From Methanohalophilus portucalensis (GTDB taxonomy: Archaea > Halobacteriota > Methanosarcinia > Methanosarcinales > Methanosarcinaceae), in assembly GCF_002761295.1 (NCBI RefSeq), contig NZ_CP017881.1, positions 1,983,750 through 2,047,749 of the forward strand: 64,000 bases of DNA. Reading direction: 5' to 3'. Positions 59,696-62,160 of the stretch are shown piece after piece (position 1 is the stretch's first letter; each line of letters begins with the position of its first letter). The notes under the pieces are model-generated. The model saw only the letters and a program-made list of their open reading frames with translations, was not told the DNA's origin and ran no database searches. A program made the translations under genes and the position numbers.

Positions 59696-60796
59696 TTACT
59701 CACTTAAAAGTGTCATTGTATGCATAAGGTCTGTTCTTGAAAGGATGCCGATAATCTCTCCATCTTCCATTACCACAAGACGGCCTACGTTATTATTGTT
59801 CAGGACCTTGAAGGCTTCAGATGCATTATCGGCAGGTGAGATAGTAACCACATCCCTTGTCATCACATCGGAAACGAGGGTACTTATCCTATCCACTTGC
59901 GCTACCTTATGTACATCCGTAAACGTAACAATGCCTTTTAAAACATTGTGCTGGATCACCGGATAACCCATATGTTTGTGTTCAAACATGAATTGTACGA
60001 GTTCTTCCAGGTTCATCTCAGGAGATACTGAAATAATATCACTGCTCATCACATCTTTTACCATGACATTCTCAAGGGTACGGGTAACAGCAGTGGAACG
60101 TTCCTCTCCTGAAGCTCCCATGTAAATAAATACCGCAATCAACAAAAGCCAGGGATTCCAGGGATTGGAAAGAATACCCAAAAGTGCCAGCATGAAAGCA
60201 AAAAATTTCCCGACAGTCGCTGCGTTACGGGTTGCCTGTATATAATTCATACGGCGAGCAAAAAATGCACGCAAAATCCTACCCCCATCCATGGGGAAAG
60301 CAGGAATCAAGTTGAATGCCCCCAATACAATATTGATGGAAGCAAGGATATAGACAAGACGATAGGGTATGGTAGTAGAATAACCTGCAACCATCATATC
60401 TACAATCAAATTCAATCCAAACAGGATACCACCAATCAAAAAACTTACAAATGGTCCCGCAAAAGCCATTTTTGCTTCCTGTCCAGGATCACGGGGCATC
60501 TCTTCCATTGAAGATACACCACCAATCAAAAAAAGGGTGATGTTATCTATCTTAACCCCATACTTTTTTGCAAAATAGGAATGACCCAGCTCGTGCAAGA
60601 GTACACAGGTAAAAAGGAGGATGGTTGTCAAAAGGGACAGGCCGTAACCTAATAGAGCAGGCTGGACATCTGCAAATCCAACGGGTTCGGGTACACTTGA
60701 AAAAACAAATGCAAAGAGAAACAGTACAATAAGAAAAGTGATATGGATCAATATAGGGATACCCATTACACTACCGATTTTGAAAGAAGTTTTCAT
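59696..60796 (-). CDS. Site-2 protease (M50) with two CBS domains
   Basis: A 366-residue intramembrane metalloprotease. The zinc motif HELGH is at about residues 68-72 in LLHELGHSYFAKKYGV, and NLIPAFPMDGGR (about 163-174) gives the third ligand. About six helices span the first 225 residues. The C-terminal 130 residues carry two CBS units (VKDVMSSDIISVSPEMNLEEL and VSDVMTRDVVTISPADNASEA), which would bind nucleotide and control cleavage. This is the archaeal Rip1/MjS2P-type arrangement. Its targets are unknown. Confidence 0.93.
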   Translation of the reverse strand: MKTSFKIGSVMGIPILIHITFLIVLFLFAFVFSSVPEPVGFADVQPALLGYGLSLLTTILLFTCVLLHELGHSYFAKKYGVKIDNITLFLIGGVSSMEEMPRDPGQEAKMAFAGPFVSFLIGGILFGLNLIVDMMVAGYSTTIPYRLVYILASINIVLGAFNLIPAFPMDGGRILRAFFARRMNYIQATRNAATVGKFFAFMLALLGILSNPWNPWLLLIAVFIYMGASGEERSTAVTRTLENVMVKDVMSSDIISVSPEMNLEELVQFMFEHKHMGYPVIQHNVLKGIVTFTDVHKVAQVDRISTLVSDVMTRDVVTISPADNASEAFKVLNNNNVGRLVVMEDGEIIGILSRTDLMHTMTLLSE

Positions 60797-60823: not shown

Positions 60824-60976
60824 TTAGTTATTTAGTTTTAGTGATGTGAATGAGTACCTGACGAATAATACTTTCACACCACTTGGTTTCAAAATATATA
60901 CCCCTGAAGACCTATTAGGAAATAGTCACGGATTCGATGGGCACACGCCTTTACAAGTTTCAAGGCTAGGTGCCAT
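60824..60976 (-). pseudogene. Interrupted short frame between mfnA and the protease gene
   Basis: On the minus strand an ATG at 60976 opens MAPSLETCKGVCPSNP, then TGA at 60926-60928, and the same frame continues LFPNRSSGVYILKPSGVKVL to a TAA at 60824. The continuation after the stop looks protein-like (regular hydrophobic alternation), which suggests a decayed small gene or a conserved repeat of the sort scattered in Methanosarcina genomes. I cannot verify that from here. An overlapping plus-strand frame at 60846 is equally unrecognised. Confidence 0.3.
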
Positions 60977-61011
60977 CGATCATCCCCTCAACCGTGATAC
61001 CAAGCACCCTT

Positions 61012-62160
61012 TTATTTTTTATTTTGAGATTGATTTACAACAGTATCCAGATCCGCAAGAAACATATCTATGATCTCATTATCCAGATGGGGCATGATAA
61101 CCAATCTTAATGCCTGTGGATTTCTCGTAAGAGAAACACGCCATCCAAAATCCTCGTAAAGTCTGTTTTGAATATCACCTGGTGACTCTACATCCAGCGC
61201 CACGATATTCATAACAGGTTCTATCACCGGCCGGATTCCTATATTCCTGGCTCCTGCAACAAGCCTTTCAGTCATATCCATACATCGTTGTACGATGGCA
61301 CCATAACCTTTTCTTCCAAGATGGCGCATAACTGCGTAAGTGGATACTACAGCTGCTCCACTACGGGTACCTGTCAGGGAATACTGACTGCTTATAGTAA
61401 GATAAGGTGTCTTTACCGCCAGATTGTCAAGATCAAGACTGTGGCGGAAAAGTAATCCTCCTGAAGGAATAGTACTTAGACCCATTTTGTGGGGATCTAT
61501 TGTTACAGAAGATACACCGGGAATTTCAAAATCAAATTTATATTTAGGTTTAAGGAAAGGCAGTACAAAACCCCCGAAAGCCGCATCTACGTGGAAAGGT
61601 AAACCATTTTCAATAGCTATGCCAGAAAGGGTTTCAAGAGGGTCTACCTGCCCAAACTCAGTAGTACCGGCTATACCCACCAATCCTATGGTATTACTAT
61701 CTATCAGGGAGTTAACTGCATCCGTATCCACCTGCAAATTATCAGAAAGAGCTGCTCTGCGTATATCTATACCTGAAAGATCACCAACTTTATCAAAAGA
61801 AAAATGAGCTGAATCAGGAACAACAATGTTAGGATTTACAATTGATCTATTACGATTACGCATAGCTCTTACGGCCTGGATATTTGATTCAGTGCCTCCT
61901 GTACTGATATAACCACAGGCATCCGGAAGATGCAACATGGCACCCAGCATTTCCATGACCTGTTCTTCCAGTTCAGATGTTCCCTGAAAAAGACCTGGGT
62001 CTCCCATATTAGCTTCGATGAAATTGCAATGGGCATGCTATGCTATTTCATGAGGATAGGTACACATGGAACTCAGAACTTTCCTGTAATCACTATCCCT
62101 GTTTTTTTTTTGAGATAATTCCTTTAGAACTGAATCTCTTGTGATGCCATTGCTATACAT
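61012..62160 (-). CDS. mfnA: L-tyrosine decarboxylase, with an in-frame TAG codon
   Basis: PLP enzyme that decarboxylates tyrosine to tyramine, the first dedicated step to methanofuran. Read through, the frame from ATG 62160 gives 382 residues, a normal family length. ATG 62160 has AAAAGGA six bases upstream. Residues 29-60 ([12 protein letters not shown], then TAG, then [20 protein letters not shown]) align with the family, so the TAG at 62038-62040 replaces a sense residue at position 41. The PLP lysine is in [11 protein letters not shown], and [10 protein letters not shown] is the conserved PLP aspartate. Without read-through only an internal ATG (62007) remains and the N-terminus would be lost. 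TAG is otherwise unused as stop in this window, so insertion of pyrrolysine is likely. Confidence 0.85.
62038..62040 (-). other. In-frame TAG (amber) codon in mfnA, candidate pyrrolysine
   Basis: Codon 41 of mfnA. Context on the minus strand: GCA-TAG-CAT. The frame continues without any further stop for 341 codons. Homologues should have a sense residue here in a solvent-exposed N-terminal helix. Confidence 0.7.

Follow-up and report, generated by a model that had tools for sequence, protein, structure and literature searches.

Is an amber-bearing mfnA gene of Methanohalophilus portucalensis a single functional gene, and if so, how is its UAG codon read? The gene lies in the window, by which we mean the whole 64,000-nucleotide stretch of DNA that was analysed (contig NZ_CP017881.1, positions 1,983,750 to 2,047,749). 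It encodes L-tyrosine (tyrosine/aspartate) decarboxylase on the minus strand (61012–62160): from an ATG at 62160 the frame meets a TAG at codon 41 (62040–62038) and continues through 341 sense codons (42–382) to a TAA at 61014–61012, which agrees to the base with the frame described in the initial annotation. The TAG is the sole interruption of these 382 codons, counting UAG as a residue. The start codon is preceded by a purine-rich stretch (...TCTAGGAAAAGGATTCTC-ATG), an unscored candidate ribosome-binding site. MfnA converts tyrosine to tyramine, the first step of methanofuran synthesis.

The read-through protein matched TIGR03812 (tyrosine decarboxylase MfnA) at 524.6 bits over residues 8–374 of 382, the curated cut-off being 299.4 bits, and aligned end to end across the TAG with the solved MfnA structures 3f9t and 6jy1 (E ~ 1e−83), so the frame is not a product of chance. 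Codons 1–40 (62041–62160, minus strand) encode the N-terminal part with the invariant MCT-PH-A motif, and codons 42–382 (61015–62037, minus strand) the PLP-dependent catalytic part, which contains a PF00282 match and the PLP-lysine motif D222, P223, H224 and K225, invariant in 21 aligned family members. The residues flanking the TAG had been said to fit tyrosine decarboxylase, and in the same alignment invariant residues were indeed found on both sides: T34, P36, H37 and A40 before it, and H44, F47, E49, N51, G53, D54 and G56–F58 after it. No second mfnA was found in the complete 2,084,875-bp chromosome, where the gene is single copy. An AlphaFold2 model built from 21 sequences had low confidence (mean pLDDT 57, with residues 31–91 below 50) and is no guide to the surroundings of residue 41, suggesting no more than a helix at residues 38–51.

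We then compared codon 41 between relatives. The same TAG was found in all six close Methanohalophilus genomes (G000, G031, G032, G034, G035 and G036), which include the named relatives Methanohalophilus sp. RSK, M. euhalobius and M. profundi (94–95% identity), and in no relative read outside these six species. Elsewhere in the Methanosarcinaceae read, codon 41 mostly encodes Val; Leu occurred in one case, and the two deeper members of the genus had Ala. Across all 16 relatives aligned the position was Val, Ala or Leu, with an entropy of 0.87 bits; this moderate conservation indicates that the site is not idle. In Methanocaldococcus jannaschii, Arg aligns with this position. An MtmB-type pattern of conservation, as expected of a catalytic residue, was not found at position 41, given the Val, Ala or Leu outside the six species.

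Selection on mfnA was estimated from five species, giving a dN/dS of 0.115 for codons 1–40 and 0.113 for codons 42–380 (dS 0.23). Such equal constraint before and after the TAG means that selection acts on a single full-length protein, and would not be expected of a gene truncated at codon 41. Of the six close species, five have an intact gene under constraint; in the sixth, M. profundi (G035), one additional T in a T5 run approximately 45 nt past the TAG shifts the frame. This is probably a homopolymer sequencing error, or else recent damage, and the extra T was skipped for the silent-site count only. The total tree length at four-fold sites was 0.51, so that in the absence of selection the three bases of the TAG should have undergone about 1.5 changes; the probability of no change is then ~0.2 by hand arithmetic, and retention of the TAG over the genus tree is compatible with neutrality. 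The data show translation across codon 41, not a preference for pyrrolysine there.

The initial annotation had proposed that the amber is decoded as pyrrolysine, and the genes for this were all present: a pylSBCD operon with an adjoining tRNA-Pyl (CUA) gene, pylT, lies ~0.83 Mb from mfnA on the same chromosome, and its products exceeded the curated cut-offs (PylS 692.9, PylB 512.4, PylC 454.6 and PylD 352.2 bits). Two mtmB genes in the genome carry TAG at the pyrrolysine site (AVOGPETSLSAQ). A further full-length MtmB homologue (G000:C1:546785–548131, minus strand) has Val and no TAG at this site, and is found near a betaine-type transporter-like frame. A 2021 review describes Methanohalophilus as being without a Pyl system (PMC8211752), but this is contradicted by the present genome and by the mass spectrometric measurement of pyrrolysine at the UAG of M. 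portucalensis MttB (PMC4928046). The release factor aRF1 is encoded by one full-length copy with NIKS and YxCxxxF motifs which look normal by eye, so some termination at UAG may persist.

We also compared the use of TAG as a stop and as a sense codon. In a sample of 464 kb, consisting of the window and twenty 20-kb stretches, a simple ORF caller gave 280 non-overlapping ORFs with a length of 200 aa or more, of which 147 ended in TGA, 131 in TAA and 2 in TAG; with sampled stretches and such a caller, the TAG figure is an estimate and not a genome-wide count. One of the two TAG-ended ORFs was pylB and the other covered the N-terminal half of a histidine kinase, whose frame runs on for 291 codons unbroken. 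Smaller samples from a second Methanohalophilus (61 ORFs), the deeper branch of the genus (51 ORFs) and a sister genus (66 ORFs) contained no TAG stops at this length, and in a 5-Mb relative TAG ends 4–8% of ORFs. The earlier statement that no other gene in the window ends in TAG is true for recognisable genes, as the window's remaining TAG-bearing frames are within the rRNA operon or antisense to a gene. Single in-frame TAGs were seen in this histidine kinase (L049, 5506–7143, minus strand) and a GNAT acetyltransferase (L050, 15–452, minus strand), and two in a TPR protein (L047, 823–1449, plus strand), so that a scatter of in-frame TAGs is normal for this genome. One relative also has the kinase TAG frame (92% identical, one TAG), while the GNAT TAG was not seen in the close relatives which have that gene.

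It should also be noted that TAG was the stop of pylB, at codon 354–355, in 28 of the 30 species inspected (L103–L132; here L053, 9878–9880, minus strand), as previously noted for three species (PMC2933860). In the same 28 species pylC starts four bases from the T of this TAG and one base after the stop. The pylB TAG is thus conserved in genomes that seldom end other genes in TAG. For a silent site to persist in this way suggests that selection maintains it, perhaps through a feedback of Pyl-tRNA on pylB–pylC translation.

Taken together, the pyl genes, the TAG in mtmB, the near-absence of TAG stops, the identical TAG in six species and the purifying selection on both sides of it strongly support decoding as pyrrolysine. 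In our preferred reading, which we hold with high confidence, mfnA is a single functional gene whose UAG at codon 41 is read as pyrrolysine, having originated in an ancestor within the genus, with the residue probably being tolerated. The cell's own tRNA-Pyl (CUA) and PylS would decode the UAG to give full-length MfnA, while a fraction of ribosomes may still stop there. The TAG would trace back to a single mutation of a Val, Leu or Ala codon, near the start of a helix, in the ancestor shared by the six close species, and would have been acquired near-neutrally, as in Methanosarcina Thg1. Such a mutation would be survivable because these archaea produce pyrrolysine for their methylamine methyltransferases, and UAG seldom serves them as a stop. 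Pyrrolysine at residue 41 is probably tolerated and not catalytic.

The other readings of the locus are less probable. Either a pseudogene or a sequencing error could account for one nonsense codon, and the +1 insertion in the T run of one relative might be taken as a further sign of decay or error. However, the identical TAG in six assemblies makes a base error very unlikely, the dN/dS of ~0.11 applies to both sides of the TAG and this is the only copy of mfnA, so that we assign this explanation a negligible probability and consider it ruled out by the six genomes and the dN/dS. Termination at the UAG followed by re-initiation, which would yield an enzyme of 331 aa that lacks the N-terminal part, is also very improbable, if slightly less so. 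An internal ATG at codon 52 (62005–62007, minus strand), ten codons past the TAG, does open a frame of this length and is the nearest possible restart site, but no ribosome-binding site precedes it, codons 1–40 are constrained equally to the rest of the gene and contain family-invariant residues, and codons 42–51, which would also be lost, hold the invariant H44, F47, E49 and N51.

An unlikely reading, though the least unlikely of these, is a regulated dual output with the UAG as a deliberate control point, in which a 40-aa peptide is made if pyrrolysine is scarce and full-length MfnA if it is plentiful, so that methanofuran would follow methylamine use. Any UAG codon brings with it a dependence on Pyl-tRNA, UAG was ambiguous in M. 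acetivorans reporters (PMC2933860), and in Acetohalobium its use is reported to depend on the carbon source, according to the secondary account in PMC8211752. However, the 103 nt from the UAG showed no excess of structure over shuffled sequence (z = −0.48), folding revealed no PYLIS-like structure 3' of the mfnA UAG, and the TAG is kept only within six close species, where its retention fits neutrality as calculated above. Methanofuran is required for growth on methanol as well, and switching its supply off would therefore make little sense. Of the interpretation first put forward, decoding as pyrrolysine is thus strongly supported, and regulated read-through found no support. The proposed tie between methanofuran synthesis and the supply of pyrrolysine holds in part: if the UAG of MfnA is read as pyrrolysine, methanofuran synthesis would by logic depend on pyrrolysine, and any gene with a UAG is unavoidably sensitive to Pyl-tRNA, but no regulatory signal was found.

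Directly downstream of mfnA we observed an unannotated conserved RNA of ~140 nt (60860–61008, minus strand), which in the window sits between mfnA and a gene at 60796–59696. Its counterparts in the five remaining close species are 94–98% identical to it. BLASTN detected it in 40 of 112 genomes of the family and a covariance model in 77 of 238 genomes of the class, ~60 of these scoring above 75 bits, all belonging to the family. At the inspected loci with both neighbours the RNA lies between mfnA and a same-strand M50/CBS protease-like gene, and this synteny extends across several genera of the Methanosarcinaceae. The RNA contains a stem with compensatory changes and had no match in Rfam, making it a candidate for a new ncRNA family. 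Extra, weaker-scoring copies adjoin unrelated genes in a sister genus, which makes a free-standing RNA probable.

Pyrrolysine is commonly presented as a specialist residue of methylamine metabolism. A more far-reaching reading, for and against which we see the chances as even, is that one nonsense substitution in mfnA, fixed in the ancestor of the genus, left an essential cofactor of methanogenesis with an obligate need for pyrrolysine. The Pyl system would then have become indispensable in Methanohalophilus on any substrate, methanol included, and the expanded genetic code could no longer be lost. With its fixed pyrrolysine codon in the only gene copy for a core cofactor, mfnA would show clearly and testably how a neutral substitution can lock an organism into an expanded genetic code. 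There is also a consequence for annotation: by translation table 11 MfnA would be cut to 331 residues or called a pseudogene, and the methanofuran pathway would be lost from these genomes. A search of the papers available to the analysis returned none linking mfnA with pyrrolysine.

Several known systems resemble this case. In M. acetivorans, UAG is read in an ordinary reporter at 20–30% efficiency and also in the tRNA-His guanylyltransferase Thg1 (PMC2933860), where pyrrolysine is attributed to neutral evolution (Heinemann et al. 2009, as cited in PMC2933860). Like mfnA, the Thg1 gene has an amber codon in an ordinary enzyme of a pyl-bearing member of the Methanosarcinaceae, with a sense codon in relatives. 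As far as that secondary account goes, the pyrrolysine of Thg1 is not essential for activity, to which we liken the probable tolerance in MfnA, and the Thg1 amber is limited to one species, whereas that of mfnA is fixed in six and in a single-copy gene for a core methanogenesis cofactor. The citrate synthase of M. mahii, for which an amber codon has been suggested to encode pyrrolysine (PMC3017947), is, like mfnA, a housekeeping gene of Methanohalophilus. However, citrate synthase is decaying across the genus (L082–L087), being intact without a TAG in the window genome, having one TAG in G034 and persisting as C-terminal remnants in four species, while five of six species have an intact mfnA under constraint. 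Separately, the aconitase of G031 has one in-frame TAG where others have Gln.

In 'Ca. Methanomethylophilus alvus', 16 Pyl proteins besides the methyltransferases are predicted (PMC4153887). Low use of UAG as a stop and in-frame UAGs in ordinary genes are features which this organism shares with Methanohalophilus, but it belongs to another order and the part of that study consulted here does not name MfnA among its Pyl proteins. In MtmB, MtbB and MttB the UAG is decoded by the same tRNA-Pyl as is proposed for mfnA; there, however, pyrrolysine is catalytic and conserved, whereas the MfnA position is Val, Ala or Leu elsewhere. An archaeal 'Pyl code', in which all TAG codons are pyrrolysine, has reportedly been described by Kivenson et al. 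in Science in 2025, and Methanohalophilus would resemble it in the genome-wide sense reading of TAG in pyl-bearing archaea. MfnA is predicted to join the known class of incidental pyrrolysine proteins, among which it would be notable because its codon is fixed in six species and belongs to a core cofactor pathway.
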